IMG/VR virus record: IMGVR_UViG_3300031658_000005
Location: 1-62,507 of that record
Origin: a virus
Strand: one strand, 5' to 3'
DNA length: 62,507 bases
Of the stretch, positions 17,997 through 58,371 are shown in pieces (position 1 is the stretch's first letter; each line of letters opens with the position of its first letter). The notes under the pieces are model-generated. The model did no database searches and had not been told where the DNA came from. It saw only the letters and a program-made list of their open reading frames with translations. A program made the translations under genes and the position numbers.

Positions 17997-17998
17997 AA

Positions 17999-19572: not shown

Positions 19573-19574
19573 GG

Positions 19575-19612
19575 AATCTCTAGGATTTATGGAAAATAAA
19601 GACTTAGAGATT
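19575..19612 (-). promoter_or_regulatory. Hairpin in the leader of the transferase operon, next to the start codon
   Basis: On the minus strand AATCTCTA (19612-19605) and TAGAGATT (19582-19575) are perfect complements around a 22-nt loop. The second arm ends two bases before the ATG of the first transferase gene. Folding would bury the region where ribosomes bind. There is no T-run, so it is not a terminator. Regulation is inference. Confidence 0.45.
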
Positions 19613-19649
19613 ACTGTCGCCTCAAGTAGATAAAATCTTAACCTTCCAT

Positions 19650-19677
19650 ATTATAGCAAAGAAAAAAGAGAAATCAA
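19650..19677 (-). promoter_or_regulatory. Sigma70-like promoter for the glycosyltransferase operon
   Basis: On the minus strand TTGATT (19677-19672), a 16-bp spacer and a perfect TATAAT (19655-19650). It lies in the 117-bp gap after nrdA, the only sizeable gap in this 22-kb run. The transcript would start near 19643 and have a leader of about 70 nt. The same TTGATT hexamer recurs at three other promoters in the window. Confidence 0.75.
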
Positions 19678-19689
19678 TTATTTTTGTCT

Positions 19690-22305: not shown

Positions 22306-22320
22306 CTTATAATTTTACAC

Positions 22321-22348
22321 AGGATATTCCCCTCTAGAACTGCGTCAA
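22321..22348 (-). promoter_or_regulatory. Promoter of nrdBA
   Basis: On the minus strand TTGACG (22348-22343), 16 bp, TATCCT (22326-22321). The leader to the nrdB ATG is 15 nt and contains GTGTAA. The -35 is near consensus while the -10 is weak, so it may need an activator or the phage sigma-like factor. Confidence 0.5.
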
Positions 22349-22421
22349 CCTTATTTTTAAGAAAAATAGCTCCGCTCATTAAATTAATATAACGTAAGGG
22401 ACACGTAGCCATTATTATTTT

Positions 22422-22469
22422 AATACGTATCCAATACGAGCATTTTGAATACGGGCGTTTCCAATACGA
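22422..22469 (+). repeat. Iterated AATACG repeats in the divergent control region
   Basis: AATACG occurs at 22422, 22433, 22448 and 22463, and the 10-mer TCCAATACGA is repeated exactly at 22430-22439 and 22460-22469, a 30-bp period (about three helical turns). The cluster lies between the nrdB promoter and the sigma-factor promoter in a 260-bp non-coding gap. Such spacing suits a DNA-binding protein controlling both operons or initiating replication. Function is inferred. Confidence 0.6.
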
Positions 22470-22529
22470 TATTCTCTATTGTAAGGATATATTTTCAGCC
22501 GTCAAGAATAAAGTATTTTTTTATTTTTC

Positions 22530-22557
22530 TTGATTTTCTTCCTTTTTCCCGTATAGT
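22530..22557 (+). promoter_or_regulatory. Promoter of the sigma-like gene operon (possibly leaderless)
   Basis: TTGATT at 22530-22535, 16-bp spacer, TATAGT at 22552-22557. The GTG start at 22566 lies only eight bases after the -10, so the transcript would begin at or next to the start codon. No Shine-Dalgarno sequence is present. Confidence 0.65.
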
Positions 22558-22565
22558 AAGTAAAA

Positions 22566-23162
22566 GTGATTAAGAGTTTAACAGATTTAGATCTAACCTT
22601 ATTGATTAAGGAAGATAATGACGAGAATGCTTTGAATGAGTTGATTTCTAGGCATTCGGGAATTTACGTGGACATGCTCTACAAATTTGGATCTAGTTGC
22701 CTGACTCAAACCCAAGTGTCTGATATTATGGGGGAAAAAGACTATGTCATCTATAAGGCTGCTTTAGAATACGACGAAACTAGAGCTAAGTTTTCCACAC
22801 ATCTTGCAAATAAGACAAAATACATGTGTCTTACTCAAAAAACCAAGAATAAAAATAACAAGGTTACAGGAAATTTTGACGAAATACAATTTTGCCAAAA
22901 AGATAAATCTTATACTCCAGATAAATCTTGCCGATTAAATGACTGCTTCAGCAGAATCATTAATTTAATAGAATTACATAAAGACAAGCGTTTAAAGATA
23001 ATTTTCCATGAGAGATATTTTTGTGGACCAAAGGGCAAGTTAAAACCTTGGAAAGATATAGCTCAAATGATAAATTTGTCTGCTCAAGGATGTATAAATA
23101 TTCATAATAGAGCTATAAAAGAATTAAGTCAAAAAATAGATGATGAAAAAATTAAATTTTGA
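22566..23162 (+). CDS. Sigma-70-family-like transcription factor
   Basis: 198 residues from GTG. The segment ALEYDETRAKFSTHLANKTKYMC matches sigma region 2 (core binding and -10 contact), and WKDIAQMINLSAQGCINIH is a helix-turn-helix like region 4. The middle is a short linker with cysteines. It is the first gene of the plus-strand module and may redirect host RNA polymerase to phage promoters. It is very different from the second sigma-like protein at 60342-61019. The divergent position next to nrdB and the iterated repeats suggests it is itself regulated. Confidence 0.7.
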   Translation: MIKSLTDLDLTLLIKEDNDENALNELISRHSGIYVDMLYKFGSSCLTQTQVSDIMGEKDYVIYKAALEYDETRAKFSTHLANKTKYMCLTQKTKNKNNKVTGNFDEIQFCQKDKSYTPDKSCRLNDCFSRIINLIELHKDKRLKIIFHERYFCGPKGKLKPWKDIAQMINLSAQGCINIHNRAIKELSQKIDDEKIKF

Positions 23163-24228
23163 AGGGCCAATAAACTCTCTTAGCTTAGGAAATGTGACAA
23201 TTAATTTTCTAAGAGAGCTAAAAGAAAGAGATATTGATATTTCATTATTCCCTATAGGAGAAAAAGGAGACTTTTCTGCTTACGATAAAATACCTGAAGA
23301 ATTTCGGCAGTGGGTAAGCAATTCAGCTTCAGTAAGACTTAAGAATCTAGACAAAGAAACTCCCTCATTGAAGATTTGGCACATTAACGGTTCAGAAAAA
23401 ACTCTACCCAATCAATTCTTATACACTTTTTACGAATTAGATTCGCCCACCAAAGAAGAAGTAAATATCGTCAAACTACAAAAACATGTATTTTTCTCAT
23501 CATCAGAAGCGGCGAAAGCCTTTAAACAAAAAGGTTGCAATAATATTAGCCATGTCCCTCTTGGCTTTGATACGGATTTCCATGAAACGAAAAAAGAATA
23601 CTTAAAAGATACTATCCATTTTGGTCTTGTGGGAAAGTTTGAACGAAGAAAAAACACACAAGCAATCATACAACTATGGACTAAAAAGTTTGGCAATGAC
23701 CCCAAGTATCAACTTTCTTGCTTGGTGAAAAATCCATTCTTTAATGAGAAGCAAATGTCTCAGGCAATTTTTAATTCTCTTGGTGGTCAGTCTTGGTCAA
23801 ACGTTAATTTCTTACCTCACCTTAAGACCAATTCAGAAGTTAATGATTTCATTAATTCAATTGATATAGATCTTTCTGGCCTTTCTAATGCTGAAGGCTG
23901 GAATTTACCGTCTTTTAATGCTACAGCCCTTGGTAAATGGTCTTTGGTAAGTAATTGTTCTGCCCATAAAGACTGGGCAACAAAAGAAAACTGCATTTTA
24001 GTAGAGCCAGCTGGCAAACAACCTTGTTACGATAACTTCTTCTTCAAGGAAGGTTTACCATTTAATCAGGGAGAATATTTTAAATTAAAAGCAGACGATA
24101 TTGAAAAAGGTTTTGAGGAAGCCCTAGAAAAAGTGGGACAAAAGAACACAGAAGGGACAAAATTGCGTGACAATTTTTCCTACTCTAAATCTATCGATGC
24201 GATTTTATCCCGTATTTACGAAGAATAA
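23140..24228 (+). CDS. Glycosyltransferase, GT-B (GT4-like)
   Basis: 362 residues overlapping the sigma-like gene by 23 nt; ATG 23143 is an equally good start. The donor domain begins HFGLVGKFERRKNTQAII, and LSNAEGWNLPSFNATALGKW is the E-containing motif of GT4 enzymes. The N-terminal acceptor half is divergent. Unlike the minus-strand transferases it sits in the plus-strand module with Hsp20 and SSB genes, so it may be expressed at a different time. Confidence 0.82.
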   Translation: MMKKLNFEGPINSLSLGNVTINFLRELKERDIDISLFPIGEKGDFSAYDKIPEEFRQWVSNSASVRLKNLDKETPSLKIWHINGSEKTLPNQFLYTFYELDSPTKEEVNIVKLQKHVFFSSSEAAKAFKQKGCNNISHVPLGFDTDFHETKKEYLKDTIHFGLVGKFERRKNTQAIIQLWTKKFGNDPKYQLSCLVKNPFFNEKQMSQAIFNSLGGQSWSNVNFLPHLKTNSEVNDFINSIDIDLSGLSNAEGWNLPSFNATALGKWSLVSNCSAHKDWATKENCILVEPAGKQPCYDNFFFKEGLPFNQGEYFKLKADDIEKGFEEALEKVGQKNTEGTKLRDNFSYSKSIDAILSRIYEE

Positions 24229-24259
24229 ATATTGGCACAGATTATGTTAAAGAAGAACC

Positions 24260-24574
24260 ATGAACAATTCATATAAAAAATATTCGAAAGACAGTTGGCA
24301 GAATAACACAGAAATAGCGCTCACTGACAACGGGAACGATTACGTGGCTGAATTCGAGCTAGCAGGATTCTCTAAAGAAGATCTTTCTGTTTCAGCAAAC
24401 GATGAAAGACTTTTTGTCAATGCTAAAAACGACACTAAACAAAAGGAATTCAAATTAAATTTATATGGGATTGTTTCTGTGGATAATATAGCATCAAACA
24501 TGAAGAATGGACTGTTAAAAATAACTCTTCCCAAGAAGAGTGTTGTAGGTAAAAGAAAAGTAGAAACCACGTAG
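24260..24574 (+). CDS. Small heat-shock protein Hsp20 (alpha-crystallin)
   Basis: 104 residues. YVAEFELAGFSKEDLSVSANDERLFVNA is the opening of the alpha-crystallin domain, and NGLLKITLPKK is the conserved C-terminal strand (consensus GxLxxxxPK). The N-terminal arm is short and no C-terminal IXI extension is clear. Hsp20 genes occur in many marine T4-like phages, where a virion-assembly or protein-holding role is assumed. Here it precedes a small structural-looking protein with a stop/start overlap. Confidence 0.88.
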   Translation: MNNSYKKYSKDSWQNNTEIALTDNGNDYVAEFELAGFSKEDLSVSANDERLFVNAKNDTKQKEFKLNLYGIVSVDNIASNMKNGLLKITLPKKSVVGKRKVETT

Positions 24575-24951
24575 TGCCAATATACATATACAAGCATCCC
24601 GCAAAAGACGAGTATGAGGAGGTTATTCAAGGAATGAATGACCTACATAGGTTTTTTAAAGATGGGAAAGAATGGAAGAGAGTATATCTTAGTCCAAATG
24701 CATCTATATCTAGCAATGACGACCCATTTAATCCCAACTCTTTTGTAGAAAAGACTGGGAAAATGAAGGGGACAGTTGGAGATATGATGAGTTATTCTGA
24801 AGAACTCAGCGAAAAAAGAGCGGATAAGCACGGGGGACAAGACCCAGTCCTTAAGCAACACTTCAAGGACTACGAGAAACAAGTGGGAAAAAAACACATT
24901 TCCGACAAGCCAAAATTATTTGAGGACAAATCGATGAAAATTGATTTTTAA
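24574..24951 (+). CDS. FmdB-like small protein without zinc cysteines, 125 aa
   Basis: The GTG start overlaps the Hsp20 stop by one base. The first 40 residues (MPIYIYKHPAKDEYEEVIQGM ... HRFFKDGKEWKRVYL) resemble the FmdB zinc-ribbon family but have no cysteines, so zinc cannot be held. The rest is hydrophilic, lysine-rich and low in hydrophobic content. It ends base to base against the convergent fibre gene. Function unknown. Confidence 0.6.
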   Translation: MPIYIYKHPAKDEYEEVIQGMNDLHRFFKDGKEWKRVYLSPNASISSNDDPFNPNSFVEKTGKMKGTVGDMMSYSEELSEKRADKHGGQDPVLKQHFKDYEKQVGKKHISDKPKLFEDKSMKIDF

Positions 24952-25809
24952 TTAAATTGGAGAGGTTAAACCTATCCCAGCCCAATGTCCTCCGCCTACT
25001 CCAGAGACAAATACGCATAAAGTATTTCCTGAAATAGCCAATGCTCCAGTCGCTTCTATTGCAGGTGAACCTTCAGAAGAACCCATGTCATTTCCAAGCC
25101 ATCTAGGTAAAGCAAAGCCTGTTTGAAATCTTGTTATTCCAGTTACAGTATGAGACCCATTGAACATTTCTTCATTTACTATAGTAGAACCACTAAGAAT
25201 TGCATCGCTTAAAACCTCAAGGTTGCCGCTAAATATTCCACTTGCCCCGTCTCCAACGTTTATACCTTGGTCAAAGTATGTGCTCCCACCTTCGAAAAAA
25301 TGGCCTGAGCTAAACTGTGCGTAAAAAGCATTCTGCTGAGTTACTGTTAAAGAGGTTGATGCTAGGTTGTCTTTTAAAACAGCGCTTCCCGTTGCAGTCT
25401 TAGTAAAAGTAACTCCATGTCCAGCCAAGCAAACATTTTCTTGGCTTCCCGTCTCAAACGAAATTGAATCTGCGCGGAAAATAGCATTATTAATACCGCT
25501 GATAGTGCTATTATTGGACGAAATTGCAAAATTATCATAGGCATTCGGTCCACCTCCAATAGCATTATTGCCACCCAAGAACAGAATATTCCCTAAGTTA
25601 GGATCGAAGGAATTATTTGAAAGAGGAGCTAATTCAGCGACCCTTCTTCCATTATTGGTTAAATTTCCTGTAAAAGAAAAGTCTCCCGTTAAACCCTTAG
25701 AAAGATTTAATTGAACTCCAGTATTACTTTGAACAATGTTTAAGTCTCCAGAATCACTAAAGAAAGTATGTAATTGGATTTGTTCTGGTTGAATTTTGTT
25801 GAATGCCAT
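24952..25809 (-). CDS. Fibre-like structural protein
   Basis: 285 residues rich in Gly, Ser, Thr and Asn with repeated short strands (LTGDFSFTGNLTNNG, GNILFLGGNNAIGGG, SGIFSGNLEVLSDA), typical of phage fibre or spike shafts. The end (HWAGIGLTSPI) is hydrophobic. It is the only minus-strand gene within the plus module and has its own promoter (25820-25848). The glycine- and asparagine-rich middle suggests a trimeric beta shaft. Receptor binding is inference. Confidence 0.65.
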   Translation of the reverse strand: MAFNKIQPEQIQLHTFFSDSGDLNIVQSNTGVQLNLSKGLTGDFSFTGNLTNNGRRVAELAPLSNNSFDPNLGNILFLGGNNAIGGGPNAYDNFAISSNNSTISGINNAIFRADSISFETGSQENVCLAGHGVTFTKTATGSAVLKDNLASTSLTVTQQNAFYAQFSSGHFFEGGSTYFDQGINVGDGASGIFSGNLEVLSDAILSGSTIVNEEMFNGSHTVTGITRFQTGFALPRWLGNDMGSSEGSPAIEATGALAISGNTLCVFVSGVGGGHWAGIGLTSPI

Positions 25810-25827
25810 GATACAATAGATTATCTT
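25799..25827 (+). promoter_or_regulatory. Promoter of the SSB-like gene, facing the fibre promoter
   Basis: TTGAAT at 25799-25804, 17 bp, TATCTT at 25822-25827, leader of about 15-20 nt to the ATG at 25848. Its -10 overlaps that of the opposing promoter within the dyad ATAGA-TTATCT-TCTAT (25816-25831). The two probably cannot fire at the same time. Confidence 0.5.
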
Positions 25828-25848
25828 CTATAAATTACACAAATTCAA
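25820..25848 (-). promoter_or_regulatory. Promoter of the fibre-like gene
   Basis: On the minus strand TTGAAT (25848-25843), 17 bp, GATAAT (25825-25820), with the ATG ten bases downstream of the -10. The -35 touches the first base of the opposing start codon. GTGTAA (25840-25835) lies inside the spacer. Confidence 0.55.
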
Positions 25849-26453
25849 TGAAATTTACTCTTTATAAGCCAAACTCCAAAAATGCAGGGTCAGCATTCAG
25901 TTTTGACATCGCCAAAGACAAAAAAGGAAATGCAGTCATGTATGTCTCTATGATCCAACAACACAGCTGGAATGATCAAACTAAAAATGGTTCTTTTAAA
26001 GAGAATGCGAAAAATCCAGAAAAATCTGGCACTATAAAACTAACCCCCACAGAAGCTGGAGAAATCCTGTCCTCGCTAAAAACAAGAATTCCTTTCGTGG
26101 CATTTCATAGGAGCGAAAAAGATACTACTATTATTAAATTCACCCCTTGGGACAAAAAAAGGAAAATTATGAATAAAAATGGAGAAGAATGGATCGAAAC
26201 TCCTGCTTTTGGCTTTTCCGTTACCCGAAATTCATCTCAAATATTCAAGCTTCCACTTGAAGCAGGAGAAACACAAGTTCTAGCAGAACTTATGAAAAAA
26301 TACATTTCAAATTCTTTTATTGTAGCGGACTCATATAAGGAATCTTATCAAAGCCAAAAGCCAAGACAAGAAGCTCCAAGACAAGAAGCTCCAAAACAAG
26401 AGCCTCCAAAACAAAAAGAAACTGAAGACGAAGACTATGGAGTCCCATTCTAA
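25848..26453 (+). CDS. Single-stranded DNA-binding protein candidate
   Basis: 201 residues. The pattern KSGTIKLTPTEAGEILSSL ... FVAFHRSEKDTTIIKFTPW resembles compact ssDNA-binding folds of phages (PC4/whirly-like). After a flexible Pro/Gln linker with QEAP repeats (about 172-190) the protein ends ETEDEDYGVPF, an acidic tip with terminal Pro-Phe like the DDDIPF tail of bacterial SSB that recruits repair proteins. No other SSB is seen in the window although helicase, primase and recombinase are. Assignment rests on the tail, fold pattern and need, not on a clear family match. Confidence 0.65.
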   Translation: MKFTLYKPNSKNAGSAFSFDIAKDKKGNAVMYVSMIQQHSWNDQTKNGSFKENAKNPEKSGTIKLTPTEAGEILSSLKTRIPFVAFHRSEKDTTIIKFTPWDKKRKIMNKNGEEWIETPAFGFSVTRNSSQIFKLPLEAGETQVLAELMKKYISNSFIVADSYKESYQSQKPRQEAPRQEAPKQEPPKQKETEDEDYGVPF

Positions 26454-28149
26454 AAAACTCAGGGTTCTAGTCCACTCTAATCATAGTAGGCTTGTTACTG
26501 GATTTGGCAAAAATGCTAAAAATATTCTTTTAGCATTACATGCTGACCCGCAAATTGAAGTTATTGAAGCTGGAAATGGAGTTAAATTTGGGGCTGACTT
26601 ATTGACTCCTTGGGAGTCTTATGGGACTAGCCCCACTGACCCACTTGTTTTGCAAGGCATACAAGGCAATGGGCAGAAAGAAAGAATGGCTCAATATGGA
26701 TATTATACTATCGACGAAATTGTCGATAGATGTAATCCAGATGTTTACCTTGGAATCGAAGACATTTGGGCGTTTTCCGAATATCACAAGAAACCTTGGT
26801 GGAATAAAATCAATAAAGTTCTTTGGACGACATTAGACAGTTTGCCGATTTTAGACCAAGCCCTGCAAATGGAGCCTCTTTGCGATAAGATGTTAGTGTG
26901 GGCATCATTCGCAGAATACGAAATGAAAAAGCTTGGACACAAGAATGTCGAAACACTCCACGGAGCTGTTGACTACTTTCATTTTAAGCCGATAGACCAC
27001 AGGTCTTCCATAAGAAAGAAATTTGGTTTGGATTCAAATTATGTGATAGGTTTTGTTTTTAAAAATCAATTAAGAAAATCAGTCCCCAACCTTCTAGAGG
27101 GTTTTAAAATTTTCAAAAAACAGAATCCAGATGCTGCAGCAAAACTGTTATTGCATACTGATTGGGCAGAGACTTCTCATGGCTGGGATATACCGAGATA
27201 TCTTAAAGAGATGGATATTGATCAAAATGATGTCCTTTCCACCTATCTTTGCCATGCTTGTGATTACTTTCATGTAGCCCCTTATCAAGGAGAAGATAAA
27301 AATTGCCCTCAGTGCAAAACAGAAAAGTCATTTAAAACTAAAAATAGCGCAAAAGGAGTTAACGAAAAACAATTAAATGAACTCTATAATTGCATGGACG
27401 TTTACTGCCATCCATTCACAAGCGGAGGACAAGAATTACCCATTCAAGAAGCGAAGGCAGCAGGACTGGTAACTTTAGTTACAGGTTATTCTTGTGGAAC
27501 AGACTCTTGTTACAAACGCCAAGGAGGAATTCCTCTAAAGTGGAATTCATATAGAGAGCCTAGCACTCAATTCATTAAAGCATCTACTTGCCCGAAAGAT
27601 ATTGCAAAAAAGTTAAAAATGGTCTTCCATATGCCAAAAGCAGAAAAACTTCTTTTGGCAGAAAAAGGATTAAAATATGTAAAAAAGAATTTTTCTGTTG
27701 AGTCCACTGTAAACAAACTCAAGAATATTTTGTTTTCTCTAGAAAAGCCCATAATCAAAGAAGAAGAGACGAAGGACTCCCCCAAGACTTTAGGGATTGA
27801 AGATGCATTAGGAGATGAAGGCATCTCTAATAGGATCGCCGTTGTTCTTCCTGAATCAGCTGGAGATATTCTCATTCTGAATTCTTTAATGAAGAATCTT
27901 AAAGATTTGTATCCAGAAAAAAACATATACGTCTTTACTAAACCTCAATTTTATCAGATGATTGAGGATAATCCAAGTGTTCATAAAATCCTTCCATATC
28001 AAGATAGTCTTCAAAACCTATTAATGTTAGAAGGAAGGGGGGACCATCAGGGGTATTTTGACATGGCTTTTTTGCCTAATATCGGGACACAAAAACATTT
28101 AAACTATCTCCATAACGGTAAAGATAAAACACAATTTGAGTTACGATGA
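26437..28149 (+). CDS. Bifunctional glycosyltransferase: GT4 plus N-terminal half of a GT9 domain
   Basis: 570 residues. The first 430 form a GT-B glycosyltransferase: RVLVHSNHSRLVTGFGKNAKN, donor domain VIGFVFKNQLRKSVPNLLEG, and HPFTSGGQELPIQEAKAAG with the catalytic Glu region. A CHAC...CPQC zinc ribbon is inserted near residues 275-295. From about 455 a heptosyltransferase-like (GT9) N-terminal Rossmann half follows (IAVVLPESAGDILILNSLMKNL). It stops there, and the matching C-terminal half is the next gene, which starts in an ATGA overlap. Confidence 0.8.
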   Translation: MESHSKKLRVLVHSNHSRLVTGFGKNAKNILLALHADPQIEVIEAGNGVKFGADLLTPWESYGTSPTDPLVLQGIQGNGQKERMAQYGYYTIDEIVDRCNPDVYLGIEDIWAFSEYHKKPWWNKINKVLWTTLDSLPILDQALQMEPLCDKMLVWASFAEYEMKKLGHKNVETLHGAVDYFHFKPIDHRSSIRKKFGLDSNYVIGFVFKNQLRKSVPNLLEGFKIFKKQNPDAAAKLLLHTDWAETSHGWDIPRYLKEMDIDQNDVLSTYLCHACDYFHVAPYQGEDKNCPQCKTEKSFKTKNSAKGVNEKQLNELYNCMDVYCHPFTSGGQELPIQEAKAAGLVTLVTGYSCGTDSCYKRQGGIPLKWNSYREPSTQFIKASTCPKDIAKKLKMVFHMPKAEKLLLAEKGLKYVKKNFSVESTVNKLKNILFSLEKPIIKEEETKDSPKTLGIEDALGDEGISNRIAVVLPESAGDILILNSLMKNLKDLYPEKNIYVFTKPQFYQMIEDNPSVHKILPYQDSLQNLLMLEGRGDHQGYFDMAFLPNIGTQKHLNYLHNGKDKTQFELR

Positions 28150-29276
28150 GCCATTTAGCAGAGGAATACGCCAAATCATGCGGAGTAAAGATTGGTAAGC
28201 CAGTATTGAATCCTCATTACTTCCCAGTTTTATATGATAAATATATTACAATTCATAATGACAAGAAGGTTCAGGCAAAAGAATACGATATGTGGGTTGA
28301 TGTTATTGAACTTCTTAAAACGCATTTGGGAGATATTAAAATCATCCAAGTCGGAGCTAAAGGAGAAAAAACAATTGACGGCGTAGATGCTCATATGCCC
28401 ACAGAAACTCTGAAGCAATCTGCTTATATTATAAAAAACTCTTTAGGACATGTCGGGATTGATAGTGTCCCTATTCACATCGCTTCTGCATTAGATAAGC
28501 CCGTTGTAGGCATCTATGCTCACACATATGCAGACACATGTTCTCCGCTTTGGAATGATAAAACAAAAGCGATAACAATTGAATCAGATAGAGGTGGCAA
28601 AAAACCCTCATTTTCTTTAGAGGAAAATCCAAAAACGATCAATTTCATAAAACCAGAAGAGATCGCTCAAGCTGTTCTTGATGTTTTAGAAATCGATGAG
28701 AAAGTTGTTCATGAAACAATTTTCATTGGGGGTAATTGTAAGTCAGATTTTTACGAGGTTATACCGATAAAGCGCACAAATATTGTGTCTGATAATATTG
28801 ATGTAAGGATGGACTACGCTCACAACGAAGAAGTCTTAAATTACATCCTCCAAAGGAATAAAGTGGAGGTTACGACCACAAAACCTATTAATGAAAATCT
28901 CATTAGGTCCAAAAAGATAAAAAAAATAATCTATAAGGCGGAATCTTTTGATGTTGAGTTTCTCAACCTAGTGAAGGAAGTGGGAGTGCCTATTATAACA
29001 ATATGCACATCTTCGAAAAACCTTCCTGAAGAAAGATCTAAAAACTTTGATCAGCTAATTAATTATCTAGATACTCAGGCAATTATTGAGAATAACAAGA
29101 AAAAGATCAATGTAGATGATTTTAATACAATTAAAATTAAAAGTAATAAAAAAATAGTTTGCGGAGACGATATTTACCCAAGCTATTTTGATTTGAATGA
29201 ACGCAAAAATTTAGATCATTTTTACCTTGACTTAGAATTCTTTAGAGTTTATCATGACCCACATGAGCAAGAATAG
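28146..29276 (+). CDS. GT9 (heptosyltransferase-like) C-terminal half with extra domain
   Basis: 376 residues. Residues to about 200 carry the donor-binding half of GT9 enzymes: IKIIQVGAKGE, then LGHVGIDSVPIHIASALDKPVVGIYAHT, the sugar-nucleotide site. It lacks its own N-terminal Rossmann half, which is the C-terminal part of the previous protein. An extra 170 residues at the end are not recognised. The four-base overlap suggests coupled translation, so the two halves may pair. A family relationship with ADP-heptose transferases is clear; the acceptor is not. Confidence 0.75.
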   Translation: MSHLAEEYAKSCGVKIGKPVLNPHYFPVLYDKYITIHNDKKVQAKEYDMWVDVIELLKTHLGDIKIIQVGAKGEKTIDGVDAHMPTETLKQSAYIIKNSLGHVGIDSVPIHIASALDKPVVGIYAHTYADTCSPLWNDKTKAITIESDRGGKKPSFSLEENPKTINFIKPEEIAQAVLDVLEIDEKVVHETIFIGGNCKSDFYEVIPIKRTNIVSDNIDVRMDYAHNEEVLNYILQRNKVEVTTTKPINENLIRSKKIKKIIYKAESFDVEFLNLVKEVGVPIITICTSSKNLPEERSKNFDQLINYLDTQAIIENNKKKINVDDFNTIKIKSNKKIVCGDDIYPSYFDLNERKNLDHFYLDLEFFRVYHDPHEQE

Positions 29277-30078
29277 TGTTTACGGCCCAGATATTTACAA
29301 GAGAAACGAGCATGGTCTTTTAGGGAATGCCCTATATTCTTTCAATGAAGATGGTTCTGTTGATTGGAGGTCCATGATTAAAGACAACTTCCTTTATCCT
29401 AATAAAGATTGGTTTGAGGCAAGAAAGAAGCCCATCCCAAGTTCTACTGACGGATTAAGAGATAATCAACTCTTGATTATGCTTGGTGGCATCAAGGAAC
29501 TCGCCAAAATAAGAGGCTATAGTTCTGTAAATTTTGATATAGATAACATTTCAGACGGTTACGTTACGGCCAAATGCACAATTGAATGGGATGGCAATTA
29601 CGAGTCATCTATTACTACCTATACAGATGTCGCGAATGCCACATTAGCTAACACAGATGCTTTTTGTGCGAAATTTTTAGAGACTATCGCTTGCAATAGG
29701 GCTTTTGTTAGGTGTGTTCGCAATTACTTGGGCATTCACATTGTAGGTGCTGATGAAATCGATAAGTCAAAAGGGGCTAATAATTCCAATACAGTGGAGT
29801 ATGATGCATCCAGCGATGCTGTAATGTTCCCATTAACGCCTTCAGGATCGCTTCAGAAGGCCTTGGGCGAGAATCGCGGAGTAAACTCCTTTGAGGAGTT
29901 TAAAGCGCTTTTAAGGGCGTTCTGGAAGGATAATTCTTATCGTCCCACCGTTTCTGGAGAGTTCACTAATGAAGAGAAAGAGAAAGAGATGTCGAAGGAA
30001 ATTAAAAGTTGGAAATCTTATGACGACATCCCAGCCAAAGAGTGCAGGAAATTGATTGCAATTTGCAAAAACTCATAA
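29254..30078 (+). CDS. Possible Rad52-like single-strand annealing protein
   Basis: 274 residues (ATG 29263 also possible). The stretch RDNQLLIMLGGIKELAKIRGY ... YVTAKCTIEWDG is followed by ETIACNRAFVRCVRNYLGI ... GADEI. This resembles the pattern in Rad52-like phage annealing proteins (sensing strands, then a helix of the form ETRAxxRAxxNxxGxG..xxEE). A Lys-rich helical tail follows. It lies downstream of the SSB-like gene, which fits recombination. Similarity is by pattern only. An unrelated conserved phage protein is quite possible. Confidence 0.4.
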   Translation: MTHMSKNSVYGPDIYKRNEHGLLGNALYSFNEDGSVDWRSMIKDNFLYPNKDWFEARKKPIPSSTDGLRDNQLLIMLGGIKELAKIRGYSSVNFDIDNISDGYVTAKCTIEWDGNYESSITTYTDVANATLANTDAFCAKFLETIACNRAFVRCVRNYLGIHIVGADEIDKSKGANNSNTVEYDASSDAVMFPLTPSGSLQKALGENRGVNSFEEFKALLRAFWKDNSYRPTVSGEFTNEEKEKEMSKEIKSWKSYDDIPAKECRKLIAICKNS

Positions 30079-37927: not shown

Positions 37928-40900
37928 TTATTTTTCTGGAGTTGTTAAGTCCGCAAGCATTGTTTCAATATGAGCCATAAAAAGATCAAGAGAGTCTAGC
38001 ATCCCCTCTTGTTTTTTTACGAATGCTGCACTTCTCTCTATAAGGCCACTTGTATCTGTAACCTGTGTTGTTATTGTGGCAGAAAAAGCATTGAGGTTTG
38101 CCACGCTTGAGGCAGCTGTCTCCATTTGATCTGCAAGCGTTGTGACATTGGAAGCAAGTCGTTTAGTAGATTCGTTATCTTCAAGCGCCTTATAATTCTC
38201 TCTGGTTGTTTCTAACTGTTTTGCGAGATCTGCTTGGGCAGTATCTAATTTTCCAATAGCTTCTTGTTCTGAGAGTTTGAGATCCTGAAGCCTTTTGTAA
38301 GTTCCTTCCCCACGCTCCTTATCAATCGCCTTGGCATCTGTTACGGCATCTGTTCTGTTCCCGATGCTCATGACACCACCTCCTTCACCAAGCTTTTTCG
38401 CCAGTTCACTTGAAATTGTTTTTAAGATTTCTGTGGCACTTATATCTCCCAGTCCTGCCCTAGATGCAGCCCCCTCGATTCCCGTCTGCAATCTAGAAAT
38501 CTTCATAGCCTCTCCTTTAGTCAACTTATGATTAGGCCCTTTTTTTTCTATGCCTCTTATGTAATCTTCAAGCTTATTTATTGCTGCATTTAAGCCTGTT
38601 GACGATCCACTTGCTTTCCCAGTGGTTACACTATCAATATATGCATCAGACGATTTTCTTTCTTTGTCTCTTAATTGAGTTTTTTTATCTTTTATATTCT
38701 CTATGCCCTTTTCAATGGAGAACATTTTATTTTTAAATGAAACCGCAGCTCCAGTTACTGCTTTATCAAAACTCTGCCCAGCTGCTGCTGCTGCTTTCTC
38801 TAACTCAATTATTGTATCTCCAGTGGAACTGGGGTCTTCCTTTGCGCCCTTAAGCGCTGCATCAGCGCTTGATTTATCAAATTTGGCTGCATTGATATCT
38901 CTAAACATTAAGTTTTGTTCAGAGGCTAATGCAACAGACCCTGCAAATGGACCAGAAATCGAACTCGCCAGACTGTTTCTGATTTGTCCTACCGCCTGAT
39001 CTTTTTTAACTCTGTTATCCGTATCTAACATGGATTTGGCTATATCCATCTTGATTTTGTTTATTTTTTTAGTGGTTTCTGTCGATGACTTATTAGCATA
39101 AATAAGGGCTGATTTATGTCTCGTCTCCTCTTCTATAGTTTCAAATCTCCTTCCAACAAGATTCAAGGTGGCTTTAACCAATTTACGTTCAGCCTTTTCT
39201 CTATTTTTACGATATTCCTCTTCTTCTTTTTCGCCTTTAGCGGGGTTAGTTTCTTGTTTATCAAGAATGTCTGCCAATTCACTCTTTGCTTCTTCGTGAC
39301 GGTTTTGAAGGCCTTCTGCCGCCTCAAAACCCTGTTTAGAATTAACCTTATTTAAATTTTCATTTACTGCGTTTTGAAAACCTAAAGGTGTAAAATCTAG
39401 TCTACCTAAAGAATTCGCTTCGTTTCCGTTCTTTTTCTTTCTTAAACTAATGTCGTTGTCCGCGCCCTCTACATCTCCGAACGCCGAGGGAACAAACCCT
39501 CCAATAAGACCTCCAATCGCTGCGCCAATTGCAGTGCCTAGAACTGGAACTACAGAACCAATTCCTGCTCCAACCAAAGCTCCAAGGCCAGCATTAGCAA
39601 GAGTGCCGCCTGTATTCTTGTATCTTTCGTTTTTCTGGCTTTGCTCTAAGTCGTCATTGAGGGCAGTAGACCCAATTTCATAAGCTGCAAAAAGTCCCGC
39701 TACAATTGGACCCGCTCGTTTGGCAATTGTATTAGCCATAACGCCCTTGGAAACCTTCAAGCCATTCATGGCCGAGGGTTTCTGGGCTACGGTAGACCTA
39801 GCTGCTGCCTGAGCATCTTTGGGCTTCATGCCTGATGCCTTGTTTTCCCTAAATTGTTTCATTTCCTGCTTGTGCCTAAAAGCATTCTGAGCTTTAGTGG
39901 CCTTCCCAGCCTTTGCTCCTCCTCCCATGAGCCAGCTTCCTGCCTTCTTGCCGTAGCCTCCAGTCACCATACTTAGAGTGCCTAAAGATACTAATGCGGT
40001 AGATGCCGTCGAAACTGCACCTACGAAATGTTCCATAGCTGTTTTTGCTTCTCCTCTAGCCTTACCTTCTTCTTTGAGTTTTTTTATCCCAACGCTTATT
40101 TCAGCATGGCTTTCCTTAGATGTTTTTAGAGCATCTATTTTTTCTTGAGTATCTGCCTCTATTTGAGTTTTATTGCCTTCGAACTCCGCTGTTGAAGCAC
40201 CCAAAACAGTCTGTAGCGCGAAAAGGCCCATCATTAATCCTCCTAAACCAGCCCCACCACCTTCAGATTTAGGTTCAGGTCCGTTGCCCTTGGCAAACTT
40301 AGGCATGTAGCCTCCAGCGAAACTTTTTGGAGTTCTCTTTGTTCGCTTCGGGATATAACCTCCAGCATAATTTTGTTTCCTTCTTTTGGGGCGAGATAAT
40401 TTTTTCAAAGACCCTTGATTAGCTAACTTCTTTGCAAAACTTGCTTGAGTTCCGTCTGTCTTATTATGTTTATAATCATAAGTAGCTATTTCGCTTCCCT
40501 TACCTGCTTGAATTCCAAAGAGTTTATCGATAGCTTTTCTCTTAGAGCCTCCAACTCCCTTAACATCAAAATCACCACCTTCTTGATTTTTTGCAGGGCT
40601 AATATCTAGAGCTGCATTTACAGATGCTTCGAAAGCAGCTCCAATTATACCTCTAAGAGCGCCTTTTCCTCCTCCTTGTGCTTGCAGTTTTTTCTCGATG
40701 TCTTTTGGTTTTGGAGTCCCTAGAACTGGTTTGAGTAATGATCCGAATTTTGCGGCGTTGGTCGTGACACTTTTAGTTATATTTTTCTCTAAATTTTCAT
40801 CATGAGGGTCTGCTGCTTGATCAATAGCCCTTGGAACTTTTGGCCCTTCAACATCTAACGCTTGAAGGTATTCGTAACCCATTTTCTTACCTTTGAATTC

Positions 40901-42943
40901 AAATCTCCCAAAACTACCCTTTTGAACTTCAGAACTATGACCAATAGTCGGAACGAGCATCGTAGCCTTTCCAACATTTGTATTAGGGTCAACGCCTATG
41001 ACTGTTTCATTTTTATTTTTATCAAGTTCTTTTTGCCTTAGTGCCACTGCATTTTTAGCACCTTCGTCTTTGCTGTCCTTATATCTTGTAGTTTCAATGA
41101 ATTGGTTTAATTTGCCTTGAGGCAATTTCGCAATTTGCGATGGACTCTTGCTTAATCCTCCAGAATATTTCGGCATATTACCACCAGCATACATAGGAAT
41201 AACTGCAGAGTTCCCTCCCGCAAAATTAGGTATTTCTACCTCACTATTATTCATTACAAACCGACTGCCACCAATCGTTCCTGCCCCGAAATGAGCTTGA
41301 ACATTATCGGGTGCTCCAAGCATTCTTGCGGTAGCCTCTTCTTCCATGAAGCCAGTGGCGAAATTCTTGCCCTTCTTGCCCCTGAAAGATCCAGTCATTG
41401 GATTGAACCCCGATACACCTCTTGCTGCCGCTGCCGAAGCGATCTTCCTCATCAACGCAGCCTGTTGCACCAATTCTCTATTTTCTTTCTGTATAGCTAA
41501 GATTACAGCTTGTTCTTTTTGAGCCTGACTTACTGTTGAACTAACAATAGTCTGCCTTAAAGCGTCATCTCTTTGAAGAAGTCCAACAATCCCACCCTCA
41601 ATCGACTTAATTCTTTCGGTTGCGCTTCCTATTGCAAACAAAGATTTCAAGCCCTCTCCCGCGAATCTAGCTACTAATTTAAAAATCTTAATAAAAGCCG
41701 CAGTAAATATAATTACTGCGGGTCCACTCAAAAAATTCCCAATTGTTTTAAATAATCCTTTAATGAAAACATTTCCTTTTTCTGGGTCTAAGGCATTATC
41801 TAGAAATTCAGTGAATTTGGTAGTAAGACCCAATAAGTTTTGAAGAAGAGGCCCAAAAGTAATTGTTCCAATCCTCTCTGAAAGACTAGTTAGTCCTTGA
41901 ATAAGAACGTTGATTTGAGAAGAGATGGATTTACTAAGTTCAGCATTTTTTTCGAAAGCTTCGTTTGTGGCCGAAGAAGCTGTGGCAGCAGCTTTTGCAA
42001 AAATAGAAGTATCAGAAGACAGGTCTTTTAAAGCAGCACTGACAACGTTGATTTGGAAGACACCACCTGCAAGTTCTTTGATTTGAGAGGCAATAGTTGG
42101 GTCTGATACATTTTGTAGGGCTGCGGATAGAGCATTTAGTTTTTGAATGCCTGTTTGTGTGTTGTCGATTTCAACCCCTAATTCTTTAAGTTTTTCAATT
42201 GTAGATCCCCTAGATATCCTAGTAAAAATTGATTTAAATGCGTTTCCGATAACAGCTCCACCACGTGAGGTTCTTTGCTCGACTGCGGTAACCAGTCCCA
42301 AAAGCTCATTAAAACTAACTCCAGCATCTTCTGCTGTAGAACCTGCGCGACTAAAAGCTTCAGCCAAATCTTGAGTAGAGACCGCAAAAGCCGTGTCAAC
42401 AGCGACCATTTTATTGACAATTTGATTGGCGCTCAGTCCAGCGGATGTAAACCCGTTGATAGCTGCCGTCAAAGCTTTCACAGACTTTGCCGAATCCAAA
42501 CCTGAAATCCTAGTCAATATCAAAGCTGCCTTTAGCCTTTTAGCTGTTTCTGCTGCACTTAATCCTTGCCTTGCAAGCTCTGCGGCTCCATCTGCCACAG
42601 TGTTAAATGATTGCCCAGTTTCTTTTGCGACTTTAAATATAGAGTTTCTAAATTTATTAAAGTTTGCATCGGTGGCTTGAAATATAGAGTTAATCTCAAT
42701 TAACTTTTTTTCCACCTCAATAGTAGTGGAAACTAATTTTTTAAATGACTGACTTACACCATTTATTACCGCAGTAGTGGCTCCAAATGCAAACACACGG
42801 GCAGTAGAAGCATCTAGAGATTTTTGAAACTCTGAAGCCTGTCCCGTAATTCTACCTAAAGCATGTTGAATCTGCTTCGAAGAGGAAGCTAGACTTACAG
42901 GATTTAACTTAACATTTAAGCTTGCATTTAAACTAACAGCCAT
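37928..42943 (-). CDS. Tape measure protein with embedded nuclease-like domain
   Basis: 1671 residues. The N-terminal 350 residues are a typical TP901-like tape measure region (long Ala-rich helices, SRGGAVIGNAFKSIFTRIS). A Gly-rich hydrophobic stretch (ALVGAGIGSVVPVLG, about 1120-1150) could enter the host membrane. Between two sets of AGG-Y-P-K repeats (about 570-600 and 857-888) lies a segment with GAAFEASVNAAL, GDFDVKG (about 790) and ATYDYKHN (about 821). Its order fits a PD-(D/E)XK core. The remainder is coiled coil. The protein sets tail length and is ejected with the DNA. Confidence 0.88.
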   Translation of the reverse strand: MAVSLNASLNVKLNPVSLASSSKQIQHALGRITGQASEFQKSLDASTARVFAFGATTAVINGVSQSFKKLVSTTIEVEKKLIEINSIFQATDANFNKFRNSIFKVAKETGQSFNTVADGAAELARQGLSAAETAKRLKAALILTRISGLDSAKSVKALTAAINGFTSAGLSANQIVNKMVAVDTAFAVSTQDLAEAFSRAGSTAEDAGVSFNELLGLVTAVEQRTSRGGAVIGNAFKSIFTRISRGSTIEKLKELGVEIDNTQTGIQKLNALSAALQNVSDPTIASQIKELAGGVFQINVVSAALKDLSSDTSIFAKAAATASSATNEAFEKNAELSKSISSQINVLIQGLTSLSERIGTITFGPLLQNLLGLTTKFTEFLDNALDPEKGNVFIKGLFKTIGNFLSGPAVIIFTAAFIKIFKLVARFAGEGLKSLFAIGSATERIKSIEGGIVGLLQRDDALRQTIVSSTVSQAQKEQAVILAIQKENRELVQQAALMRKIASAAAARGVSGFNPMTGSFRGKKGKNFATGFMEEEATARMLGAPDNVQAHFGAGTIGGSRFVMNNSEVEIPNFAGGNSAVIPMYAGGNMPKYSGGLSKSPSQIAKLPQGKLNQFIETTRYKDSKDEGAKNAVALRQKELDKNKNETVIGVDPNTNVGKATMLVPTIGHSSEVQKGSFGRFEFKGKKMGYEYLQALDVEGPKVPRAIDQAADPHDENLEKNITKSVTTNAAKFGSLLKPVLGTPKPKDIEKKLQAQGGGKGALRGIIGAAFEASVNAALDISPAKNQEGGDFDVKGVGGSKRKAIDKLFGIQAGKGSEIATYDYKHNKTDGTQASFAKKLANQGSLKKLSRPKRRKQNYAGGYIPKRTKRTPKSFAGGYMPKFAKGNGPEPKSEGGGAGLGGLMMGLFALQTVLGASTAEFEGNKTQIEADTQEKIDALKTSKESHAEISVGIKKLKEEGKARGEAKTAMEHFVGAVSTASTALVSLGTLSMVTGGYGKKAGSWLMGGGAKAGKATKAQNAFRHKQEMKQFRENKASGMKPKDAQAAARSTVAQKPSAMNGLKVSKGVMANTIAKRAGPIVAGLFAAYEIGSTALNDDLEQSQKNERYKNTGGTLANAGLGALVGAGIGSVVPVLGTAIGAAIGGLIGGFVPSAFGDVEGADNDISLRKKKNGNEANSLGRLDFTPLGFQNAVNENLNKVNSKQGFEAAEGLQNRHEEAKSELADILDKQETNPAKGEKEEEEYRKNREKAERKLVKATLNLVGRRFETIEEETRHKSALIYANKSSTETTKKINKIKMDIAKSMLDTDNRVKKDQAVGQIRNSLASSISGPFAGSVALASEQNLMFRDINAAKFDKSSADAALKGAKEDPSSTGDTIIELEKAAAAAGQSFDKAVTGAAVSFKNKMFSIEKGIENIKDKKTQLRDKERKSSDAYIDSVTTGKASGSSTGLNAAINKLEDYIRGIEKKGPNHKLTKGEAMKISRLQTGIEGAASRAGLGDISATEILKTISSELAKKLGEGGGVMSIGNRTDAVTDAKAIDKERGEGTYKRLQDLKLSEQEAIGKLDTAQADLAKQLETTRENYKALEDNESTKRLASNVTTLADQMETAASSVANLNAFSATITTQVTDTSGLIERSAAFVKKQEGMLDSLDLFMAHIETMLADLTTPEK

Positions 42944-46842: not shown

Positions 46843-48132
46843 TTAAGATCCAGCTCCATCTTCAGGGGAGTATGGCGCTTTGTTGTTATTCTTCTCATAC
46901 AGAAATCCGTCATCGAATTTCCCAGCTTTAGTTGTGCTATATACGTCAGGCTGGTTTGAACTGATTCCAGAGTAAAAGAATCCTTGATCAATTTGATTGG
47001 TTCCTCCAAGTTGAGTAGAAAACACTAATTCAATCGTCTCGTTGTCGTCTAATCCTTGAGAAAACCCTTGAGAATCTACTACTGCTTTTCTCATAACATA
47101 CTTGTGAGCGGAATTCCCATCTTCGTCTTTGACAGTAAGAGTAATATCAGTGGTTTGTTGACCAGCGCTTCCAGTTAGAATTTTGTCAACTTGCCCCTCT
47201 TGAAAGTTTTTGAGTAATGCGCTTACCGACATTGTTATATTAATTGGTAAATCCAATGGCTTGGCTACCGCCTTAGCAGAACCAAGGGCTTCAATGGGAG
47301 TCCTAGAAAGAGGTACTTCAATAGAGGCGCTCTGAACATGCATATCTCCCAGATCAGTTCCACCAAAGGCAAATTCTGTTGTAGAGAAGGATAAAGTAAC
47401 GTCTTCTGGACGGAGGACTAGAACACTCATATTGCCAGTGCTAGGCGCTCCTAGCATGAACTGACCAGTATCTGCGCGTCCGCCAGCCTTATTTAAGGAA
47501 GGGTTATAAATGCCAGAACTAGTAGCGTCAAAAGTAACGTTTTCTGCAGTTCCATCAATATCAACTCTTGGAATTTCTCCAACAGCAAAGTTCAAAGAGT
47601 AACTTTCAAAATTGCAGTTTCCAAGAGAAACGACATCATGATTTGCTCTTTCAGTAGTGGTAAATTTTCCAGTTGGGTTATCAAGAAAAGAATTAGTAGA
47701 TGCGAAAGCATCTTCTCCCTCTTTAACAGTTAAGACGAATAGGTTTTTTTCTCTTTTCGCAGGGTCTTCCGCAAGAATTCCAGAGACAAATTGACCTTTA
47801 AAAATCGGGGTGGCATCATCACCTAGAATCCCTAAGCCATTAAATCCTAAATTACCTTCATTTTCTCCTGCTCCAAGGTAGTAACCAAGAGAGAAAGATG
47901 GGTTCAAGTCACCTAAAGTGATCGTTCCAATTCGTGCTAATTGTCCAAATTCTCGAATATCTTGCCTTCCTCCAGCAATATCGATATCAAAAGAGAAAGT
48001 GTCTACCCGATGAAGCTGTTGCGGCATACAGCCCGTTTTTGCTTTTTGGGGTGTGGTTAAATTGGAAAGTGCGCCCGTAGGAGACACATAAACAGCTTTG
48101 CTTTGCGAAATTATTCTAGTTCTAGAGGCCAT
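46843..48132 (-). CDS. Major tail (tube) protein, 429 aa
   Basis: 429 residues: MASRTRIISQSKAVYVSPTG, then repeated beta elements (FSFDIDIAGGRQDIREFGQLARIGTITLG and IEVPLSRTPIEALGSAKAV) typical of duplicated tube folds. It is followed by a strong terminator, as expected for a very abundant protein. No sheath gene lies nearby. Assignment is by position, style and terminator. Confidence 0.65.
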   Translation of the reverse strand: MASRTRIISQSKAVYVSPTGALSNLTTPQKAKTGCMPQQLHRVDTFSFDIDIAGGRQDIREFGQLARIGTITLGDLNPSFSLGYYLGAGENEGNLGFNGLGILGDDATPIFKGQFVSGILAEDPAKREKNLFVLTVKEGEDAFASTNSFLDNPTGKFTTTERANHDVVSLGNCNFESYSLNFAVGEIPRVDIDGTAENVTFDATSSGIYNPSLNKAGGRADTGQFMLGAPSTGNMSVLVLRPEDVTLSFSTTEFAFGGTDLGDMHVQSASIEVPLSRTPIEALGSAKAVAKPLDLPINITMSVSALLKNFQEGQVDKILTGSAGQQTTDITLTVKDEDGNSAHKYVMRKAVVDSQGFSQGLDDNETIELVFSTQLGGTNQIDQGFFYSGISSNQPDVYSTTKAGKFDDGFLYEKNNNKAPYSPEDGAGS

Positions 48133-56441: not shown

Positions 56442-56470
56442 GTTATAAAAGTAACTTTACAACTTTTCAA
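56442..56470 (-). promoter_or_regulatory. Promoter before the portal gene
   Basis: On the minus strand TTGAAA (56470-56465), 17 bp, TATAAC (56447-56442), with an 18-nt leader that holds GTGTAA (56437-56432) eight bases before the ATG. The -35 overlaps the terminase stop codon region. It allows head genes to be made apart from terminase. Confidence 0.6.
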
Positions 56471-58371
56471 ATTGCAAACGGAATAAATGTTCCTTGAGGC
56501 TTTTGTTCTTGAGTCGCGTTTTCTGAATCAAAAAATACCTTGGCAAACCAATTCCCTAGAACTAAGGCAGAATAAGAATCTTTTCGTGCTCTATTAGGCC
56601 CTTTTTGCCTTCTTAGGTTTTGAGGTAGGTTAAATGCTTGTGATCCTTGTGGATTTCCTACCACTTCAATGTTAGCGCATTCCGACTTTGTAAGTTCTAC
56701 AACATACTTTTGATGATCAATTAAGTCTATCATCATGGCTCCTTTAGAAGATTTTGGGGTCTTAATATCCCATTTTAGTTTTTCAATGGGTATGTTTTTT
56801 TTGCGTTGCGAGTCAAAATGACTATCAATCGCCCTAGAAGCAAATAGAATTCTTTTATGGTCTATGGCCGCTTGCAACATCTCATTAGCGTTTCTAATCC
56901 AATTAGATGTGGGTTTTCTAAGTATGCAGTAATTTCTCTCTCTTACGTTGTATTGGTTTTTAAAATTCAATATGTCTGAGTTCCAATTTTCTGGTCTTTC
57001 CAAGTCCACTTCTAAAACGCCGATTTTCACATCAGCCTCTTTAAATAAAGCACTCTCATTACAAGAGTTAATAAACTGGACTCCTCCATTATAGTCCCCG
57101 CAAATCCCAACAATATTAAAGTGCTGTATTAAATATAAAAAATACTCCATATGCTCCTTAAGAGACACTCCTGCTATAGCATAACTATGCACTAAGCATA
57201 TTTTTTGAGCTTCTCTATCAACCTTAAACACATGCATTGCAAAATGGTCAGCGTTAGTATTGCCAGCCCAGTTTGGGTCAAAAGCAAGGAGATACTCATG
57301 ACTAGGGTTTCCGACTAATTCTACTGCGGGGAACTCTCCATCTGGAATGGTGCAAGCGGCCATTTTAGATAATCTAAAGTAACCATCACTCTCATCAATA
57401 AACTGAGCGCCAAATTCTCTCTTGAATTGCATCTCCGACATTGTTGCCTTCGCTTGCTTAAGCAGATTTTGATCATATAGTCTCTTAGGAGCGCAATCGT
57501 AACTTAATTGCATAATAAGCCTATAAGCATCATCTTTTAATTCATCCTCTTCGTCTCCCTCTTCGTCATTCTCTTTTGCCTCATTCCCAAATATAAGATC
57601 TTCATACTTTTTGTATAATCTATACATGTATTCGAATTTAAATGATGGAGATGATAGAATGATTAGCTTGTTGTTGGGCCAAACATACCTGTCTCCCTCT
57701 TTCATCTCGCCTTTCTCGATTACTCTGGATTCTAGGTTGTATAATTCCTCTCTCTCGATGGGGTTGTCTACCACACCAAGGAATGGTATGATAACTTCGT
57801 TAAAAATCTTTTCTGGTATAGTTAAGAATTCATCCAACACAATCCTATTAAAACGAAATCCACGAAGTCTCTCTCCATTAGCGAGAGGAAGGGCAATAGC
57901 CCTAGCCTTACCTAAAGTCATTGTCCATTGGTCAGTTCCCTTTTGAATTCTGAATCCGCATTCTTTAATTAGGCTGGCTTCTGGTTTACTAATGATATCC
58001 TCCATTTTTTGGAAGATTTGTTTTGATTGCCTAAAACTTCCTGCGATAACGCCTATATTAGCGCTAGGATTGAGTAAGCACTCTAGTATTACGTAAATCG
58101 CCGTAGAGAATGTCTTAGACATGCCGCGAGAAAATACAAACATAGAATAGTCCGAAACCATCATGCCCTTGATCGCCATCGCTTGAAATGGGAATAACTT
58201 CACACCCAAAAACAACTCAGATGTAAAGGCTATATTATTTCTAAGAAATTTATATAACAAATACTTAGACTCCTCTTCTCCAAGAGTCCCATCCATTTTC
58301 TTTATTAGCTTGTTTAGCTCCTTTGAGGAGTGCTCAAGCCGATATCCTTGTTTTCCTTTTGTCCAAGCCAT
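56467..58371 (-). CDS. terL: Terminase large subunit
   Basis: 634 residues. ATPase motifs: Walker A SRGMSKTFS (81-89), Walker B RIVLDEFLTI (about 175-185). Nuclease motifs: LLAFDPNWAG with the first Asp, ICGDYNGGVQF with the second, then MIDLIDH. It overlaps the ERCC4-type nuclease by 38 nt. It pumps DNA into the prohead and cuts it. It is followed by the portal gene, as usual. Confidence 0.93.
   Translation of the reverse strand: MAWTKGKQGYRLEHSSKELNKLIKKMDGTLGEEESKYLLYKFLRNNIAFTSELFLGVKLFPFQAMAIKGMMVSDYSMFVFSRGMSKTFSTAIYVILECLLNPSANIGVIAGSFRQSKQIFQKMEDIISKPEASLIKECGFRIQKGTDQWTMTLGKARAIALPLANGERLRGFRFNRIVLDEFLTIPEKIFNEVIIPFLGVVDNPIEREELYNLESRVIEKGEMKEGDRYVWPNNKLIILSSPSFKFEYMYRLYKKYEDLIFGNEAKENDEEGDEEDELKDDAYRLIMQLSYDCAPKRLYDQNLLKQAKATMSEMQFKREFGAQFIDESDGYFRLSKMAACTIPDGEFPAVELVGNPSHEYLLAFDPNWAGNTNADHFAMHVFKVDREAQKICLVHSYAIAGVSLKEHMEYFLYLIQHFNIVGICGDYNGGVQFINSCNESALFKEADVKIGVLEVDLERPENWNSDILNFKNQYNVRERNYCILRKPTSNWIRNANEMLQAAIDHKRILFASRAIDSHFDSQRKKNIPIEKLKWDIKTPKSSKGAMMIDLIDHQKYVVELTKSECANIEVVGNPQGSQAFNLPQNLRRQKGPNRARKDSYSALVLGNWFAKVFFDSENATQEQKPQGTFIPFAI

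Follow-up and report, generated by a model that had tools for sequence, protein, structure and literature searches.

Enzymatic domains have been described both in phage tape measure proteins (TMPs) and in proteins related to them. Motif 3 (mt3) of the TMP of mycobacteriophage TM4 is a peptidoglycan hydrolase (PMC1796659), and in the contractile injection system of Streptomyces davawensis the TMP-related effector Tme (BN159_7576) carries an endonuclease of the EndA type, which is active (PMC11126660). Translocation of the T6SS DNase Tde1 depends on a glycine-zipper motif, and glycine zippers are also found in phage TMPs (PMC10240207). On the side of the host, the membrane nuclease SNIPE recognises TMPs (PMC13190303). 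Here we describe a candidate nuclease domain inside the TMP of an uncultured phage represented by a 62.5-kb virus record, the whole of which (62,507 nucleotides) was analysed and is referred to as the window.

Like Tme, which also has predicted membrane segments, the protein studied here is a TMP or TMP-related protein with a nuclease domain, in our case a putative one. However, the nuclease of Tme is of the EndA type (DRGH / H-N-N), is located at the C-terminus and belongs to a bacterial injection system (PMC11126660), whereas the domain in the window carries an E-D-DxK set, occupies an internal position and has a phage TMP as its carrier. With TM4 it would share the principle of an enzymatic domain that resides within a phage TMP and is used at infection, but the TM4 hydrolase acts on the cell wall and is not a nuclease, and cassette swapping is not shown for TM4 (PMC1796659). 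Tde1 would resemble our protein in combining a nuclease with a glycine-zipper segment proposed for membrane passage, but is a small T6SS cargo of the Ntox15 type with an immunity protein and an N-terminal zipper (PMC10240207), whereas in the TMP of the window the nuclease-like domain comes first and the zipper follows about 270 residues later, on its C-terminal side. Large enzyme-bearing phage proteins proposed to enter the host or to hit competitors are also known as polyvalent proteins (PMC5512222) and as MuF polymorphic toxins (PMC5576092); they differ in their carrier proteins, the carrier here being the TMP, and a text search of the paper on polyvalent proteins (PMC5512222) did not turn up tape measure proteins. 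An enzyme-bearing TMP is of a kind already known, and it is the predicted catalytic class, the internal position and the documented swapping that are new in comparison with TM4 and Tme.

The tape measure protein and its genomic context

The TMP is encoded by the largest open reading frame of the window. The protein matches PhageMin_Tail (PF10145, 6.3e-24) and several PHROGs tape measure families, among which phrog_4211 gave the best match (4.7e-43). Both the family profile and the tail-gene position, with a minor-tail match nearby at 46846-48132, identify it as a phage tail TMP. Its N-terminal 475 residues are 65-88% identical to those of relatives. Family matches were also looked for in the genes neighbouring the TMP gene, and none was significant. 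The coordinates of all features discussed for the TMP are compiled in Table 1.

Table 1 Position of the TMP, its domains, motifs and repeats, and of the terminase gene in the window.
Feature	TMP residues	Window coordinates	Strand	Evidence or remark
Tail tape measure protein	1671 aa in total	37928..42943	minus	ORF, PF10145 and PHROGs tape measure families
Conserved N-terminal PhageMin_Tail region	105-293	42065..42631	minus	PF10145
Upstream repeat pair FAGGNSAVIPMYAGGNMPKY	574-593	41165..41224	minus	AGG-Y-P-K type
Nuclease-like domain, exchangeable unit	655-844	40412..40981	minus	HMM family with 37 members (3e-64 for the window); AlphaFold2 model
Motif I GAAFEASVNAAL, E772 in helix	768-779	40607..40642	minus	Acid in 37/37; helix in model
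E772 codon	772	40628-40630		GAA
Motif II GDFDVKG, D793 just before strand	790-796	40556..40576	minus	D in 37/37
D793 codon	793	40565-40567		GAT
Motif III ATYDYKHN, D823-x-K825 at strand end	820-827	40463..40486	minus	D in 36/37, K in 36/36
D823 codon	823	40475-40477		GAT
K825 codon	825	40469-40471		AAA
Downstream repeat pair YAGGYIPKR / FAGGYMPKF	859-883	40295..40369	minus	AGG-Y-P-K type
Glycine-zipper segment, possibly membrane-inserting	1111-1151	39491..39613	minus	PF13488 (3.6e-4) and PF13441 (4.2e-3), both sub-cut-off
Terminase large subunit		56470-58371		

The window also has genes for DNA polymerase III alpha (PF07733, PF17657), a DnaB-like helicase, a RecA-like protein and ribonucleotide reductase. 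The polymerase gene is found in the interval 3620-6795 (minus strand) together with a separate neighbouring gene for an RNase_T-type exonuclease (6184-6795). A separate PDDEXK_1 nuclease gene (PF12705, 1.1e-13; 7493-8530, minus strand) adjoins the genes for a DnaG-like primase (8520-9572) and the DnaB-like helicase (9575-11098). A block for sugar and surface-polysaccharide functions extends from 13323 to 30078 and includes genes for GDP-mannose dehydratase, a DegT aminotransferase and glycosyltransferases, one of them GT9 heptosyltransferase-like. The gene at 58334-59287 (minus strand), which adjoins the terminase gene, gave sub-cut-off matches to a C2H2 zinc finger (1.2e-3) and an ERCC4-type nuclease (5.9e-4).

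Conservation and predicted structure of the nuclease-like domain

A first-pass annotation had pointed to three short motifs within the 1671-residue TMP, had read their order, E ... D ... D-x-K, as the core of a PD-(D/E)XK nuclease and had placed the segment between two clusters of AGG-Y-P-K repeats. Motifs and repeat clusters were all located in the protein, the motifs within the interval 40450-40660 first indicated and with one repeat pair on either side of the segment (Table 1). The domain is larger than the 70 residues first reported and spans about 190 residues according to the HMM.

Relatives were gathered from IMG/VR using the domain, the domain alignment and the N-terminal part of the TMP as queries, and 67 distinct TMPs were found, that of the window included. 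An iterated HMM unites 37 of these 67 proteins, again including the window, as one family of domains of about 190 residues. In the alignment of the 37 domains only 11 columns are conserved to at least 90% (P665, G758, G761, A762, G768, F771, E772, D793, F809, D823 and K825), and the only charged columns among them are E772, D793, D823 and K825, in the order typical of PD-(D/E)XK enzymes. The first position is occupied by E in 35 sequences and by D in the other two. D793 is kept in 37 of 37 sequences and D823 in 36 of 37, while K825 is present in all 36 sequences with a residue at this position, the remaining sequence reaching its contig end. The order of residues noticed at first is thus real and is retained in every relative inspected.

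In line with this, same-class TMPs not captured by the HMM have a domain in the corresponding position, and its residues follow the same order. These are group B (FDFEE...RADAKR), group C (FDLNL...GEVK) and group D (MDFRG...GIEAK), for which hhalign gave 95.6%, 40% and 74%, respectively, versus the family; their catalytic residues fall in register with it or nearly so. By our own reading of alignments and sequences, the acid / D / [DE]xK order is present in 47 of 47 same-class TMPs, that of the window among them, for which the contig extends into this region; two further TMPs of the class end before it. The third acid alternates between D and E while the lysine is unchanged, the divergent versions reading GEVK, IEAK and YEAK, a pattern that PD-(D/E)XK chemistry would predict. 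The dN/dS values of the domain range from 0.04 to 0.20 in eight close pairs, and the domain is therefore functionally constrained by purifying selection.

The set also occurs in longer TMPs of about 2650 residues with an N-terminus that is about 50% identical (L077, L081, L084, L087, L088 and L089), while some other TMPs of this length do not show the domain. Pfam detected further domains within the longer proteins. L077 has a GNAT acetyltransferase at residues 1216-1270 (PF00583, over cut-off at 1.9e-6), and residues 1241-1368 of L084 match a polyA-polymerase head (PF01743, 2.4e-14). Kinase-like motifs were recognised in the longer TMP L076 by eye only, without a Pfam match. In tblastn searches of cultured phages, neither the domain of the window nor those of three relatives gave a match. 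A hit of L077 in Flavobacterium phages (E 0.5) concerned a hypothetical protein that is not annotated as a TMP and was judged to be due to chance. Patterns of the close family were also run against 84,980 genomes of bacteria and archaea, an approach that detects close relatives only, and did not yield any relative. Viral scans seeded by divergent members and aimed at more-divergent relatives returned almost solely contigs already known.

An AlphaFold2 model was calculated for residues 640-858 with 33 sequences and proved confident for the full domain (pLDDT 88.6, pTM 0.83). The N-terminal part is formed by six short strands, followed by helices, and leads into a long helix with E772. The next strand starts immediately behind D793 and is separated by a helix from the strand with D823, the end of which adjoins K825; another helix and the last strand complete the model. 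When the core was modelled without the N-terminal strands, the result was poor (pLDDT 64.2, pTM 0.41), which suggests that these strands belong to the fold; note that the alignment also differed between the two models. In PD-(D/E)XK enzymes strands 2 and 3 pair antiparallel. If the strands of motifs II and III did the same, D793 and D823/K825 would come together.

The proposed PD-(D/E)XK core fared unevenly in this comparison. As judged from the alignments and the model, the domain appears to share with the superfamily, e.g., with PDDEXK_1 (PF12705), the ordered and conserved set of an acid in a helix, a D before a strand and [DE]-x-K ending a strand. In contrast, the textbook alpha-beta-beta-beta-alpha-beta order is not seen in the model, which lacks the first core strand, whose place would be between the helix of E772 and the strand of D793, and has an extra helix inserted between the two catalytic strands. 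The model does not prove a PD-(D/E)XK fold. Foldseek with the full-domain model found no match (best E 0.52 in the PDB and 0.31 in BFVD), and VIA-align with the same model offered no usable neighbour (Z at most 3.1). Nor was a nuclease family recovered by profile searches, which gave no significant Pfam, PHROGs or PDB-sequence match; the domain, alone and as alignments, produced nothing above chance against Pfam, PHROGs, PADLOC and PDB sequences. Isolated hits to the restriction enzyme ThaI (0.067 in two of 40 members), to phrog_32328 (no function; 0.0026 in four members), to MazF (0.56) and to ribosomal L23 (0.11) were not taken as evidence. The PDDEXK_1 gene of the window was found by Pfam, so a Pfam search is able to see the superfamily here. 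When the PDDEXK_1 protein was compared with the TMP domain by hhalign, motif III alone aligned (RDFKTS versus YDYKHN in the window TMP; family consensus gDFKsS) at 3% probability, which we treat as a lead and not as evidence. The PD-(D/E)XK superfamily is known to include families that fail to recognise one another.

A confident model without any Foldseek neighbour, a non-canonical order of strands and helices and the lack of a nuclease profile match would also suit an enzyme other than a nuclease, in which E, D, D and K are conserved in an unrelated or new fold. We consider this unlikely, albeit the best surviving of the alternatives, because the order and spacing of E-D-[DE]xK, with D/E exchange at the third acid only, correspond to the PD-(D/E)XK signature. 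The D-[YF]-K motif furthermore resembles motif III of the PDDEXK_1 protein encoded in the window, with the low alignment probability given above.

Replacement of domain versions between repeats

The idea that the domain behaves like a cassette was borne out when relatives were compared, as clean domain swaps bounded by repeats became apparent. Across pairs of TMPs, identity of the domain is nearly uncoupled from identity of the N-terminal region (Spearman 0.18). The relatives L026 and L027 are 98% identical in the N-terminal region and 19% identical in the domain; for L066 and L067 the corresponding values are 98% and 31%. The DNA identity between L026 and L027 is mostly 87-97%. Immediately behind GGFVPNYA it drops to about 23-67%, and with the GGFVPNYRFGGI repeat, which follows after some 310 residues, it regains 88-92%. 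Between break and recovery, a KKAKGGIIPNY repeat is common to both (82%). The L066/L067 pair likewise breaks at a GFIPNY repeat, and identity recovers later and less fully. The GF[IV]PNY repeats of the relatives are the equivalent of the downstream repeats of the window and mark the edges of the swaps. A short conserved module (GVPxSxIRVHxD..GxPxAVTNxRDEPxGLxDAIxRERxGIGM) is located directly C-terminal of the nuclease-like domain, between two GF[IV]PNY repeats, in L005, L006, L021, L025, L026, L034 and others, and is absent from the window.

These comparisons strongly support the view that the domain is an exchangeable cassette with edges marked by repeats, and the repeats themselves may act as recombination sites. 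A literature search for the repeat motif returned unrelated papers only. Positive selection was rejected as the source of diversity for the close pairs on the basis of the dN/dS values given above; diversity accompanies replacement. In a large survey, genuine recent mosaicism could not be confirmed for any tape measure protein (PMC10684548). L026/L027 and L066/L067 look like concrete recent TMP mosaics of just the kind that this survey lacked. With its constant carrier and an exchangeable, putatively catalytic domain, the system has the make-up that characterizes polymorphic toxins.

A candidate nuclease with a proposed release at genome entry

Instead of being directed against the host, a nuclease in this position could serve the phage's own DNA or its assembly, for example in debranching during maturation, or at the tail, where it might trim the end of the genome or hold it. 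The TMP touches the leading DNA end during ejection, and retention of the domain in every complete relative of its class fits a core function. On the other hand, it is not obvious why housekeeping should favour wholesale replacement by versions that are less than 20-30% identical in a TMP that otherwise remains 98% identical, and a separate PDDEXK_1 nuclease for DNA metabolism is already encoded in the window. We therefore regard such a role as rather improbable and place it second among the alternatives. Third, the domain might be non-catalytic, either structural or binding a host factor, with the conserved residues holding a metal or the fold and swapping changing the envelope partner. TMP regions that decide the inner-membrane partner and the susceptibility to defence do vary between phages (PMC13190303), and rapid exchange suits a partner-binding part. 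In a binding domain, however, one would not expect that versions less than 25% identical have hardly anything in common but precisely an acid, D and [DE]xK, and we give this possibility a small chance. That short motifs, which are easily found by eye, arose fortuitously in a low-constraint linker is extremely improbable and already refuted by their near-perfect conservation in 37 aligned and 10 further versions, to which the low dN/dS (0.04-0.20) and the confident fold are added.

The reading that we favour, and that we consider reasonably likely, is that residues 655-844 constitute a divergent metal-dependent nuclease of the PD-(D/E)XK type, which forms an exchangeable cassette of the TMP and is set free when the genome enters. 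The alignments establish a conserved constellation of presumed catalytic residues, purifying selection and a repeat-bounded replacement in which acid / D / [DE]xK are kept, and nuclease activity is a probable prediction at this level. The fact that the swapped domain always retains these residues suggests delivery of an enzyme by the tail, together with the genome of the phage.

In such a scenario, two metal-binding acids and the lysine would cleave phosphodiester bonds. The domain would be carried in the tail and freed with the TMP on tail opening, and the glycine-zipper segment downstream of it, a similar Gly-rich counterpart of which is present in the TMP of many relatives, may help the TMP into the inner membrane. 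The nuclease could then attack nucleic acid of the host, of plasmids or of rivals, either at the envelope or inside it. Delivery of the TMP into the target cell is suggested by TMP biology (PMC13190303, PMC11126660), and an action against host or rival DNA is conceivable on this basis. As versions are replaced while the active site is retained, their diversity would lie in specificity or in who resists the enzyme: the versions may have different specificities or may be blocked by different inhibitors or defences, and their diversity may be sustained by recombination at the repeats.

The GNAT and polyA-polymerase head domains of the longer TMPs are consistent with a general cargo role of the TMP. 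Tentatively, and with less confidence than for the delivered nuclease, we propose that the TMPs of this group of uncultured phages are polymorphic effector carriers. Each virion may bring in an entry nuclease through its tail and, in longer relatives, acetyltransferase- and nucleotidyltransferase-like domains too, and the effectors may be swapped by recombination at GF[IV]PN[FY] repeats as part of an arms race, be it against the defences of the host or against rival elements.

The interest of the finding rests on the evidence for swapping and on the retention of the domain in every complete relative of its class. Tape measures are usually regarded as rulers and DNA conduits. If the delivered-nuclease reading is true, the TMP would be a delivery vehicle that acts before any phage gene is expressed. 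An internal swapped domain could help to explain the unalignable look of TMP mid-regions. It would also provide a link to SNIPE, the recognition of TMPs by this host nuclease being a recent finding that coincides with it in place and time (PMC13190303).
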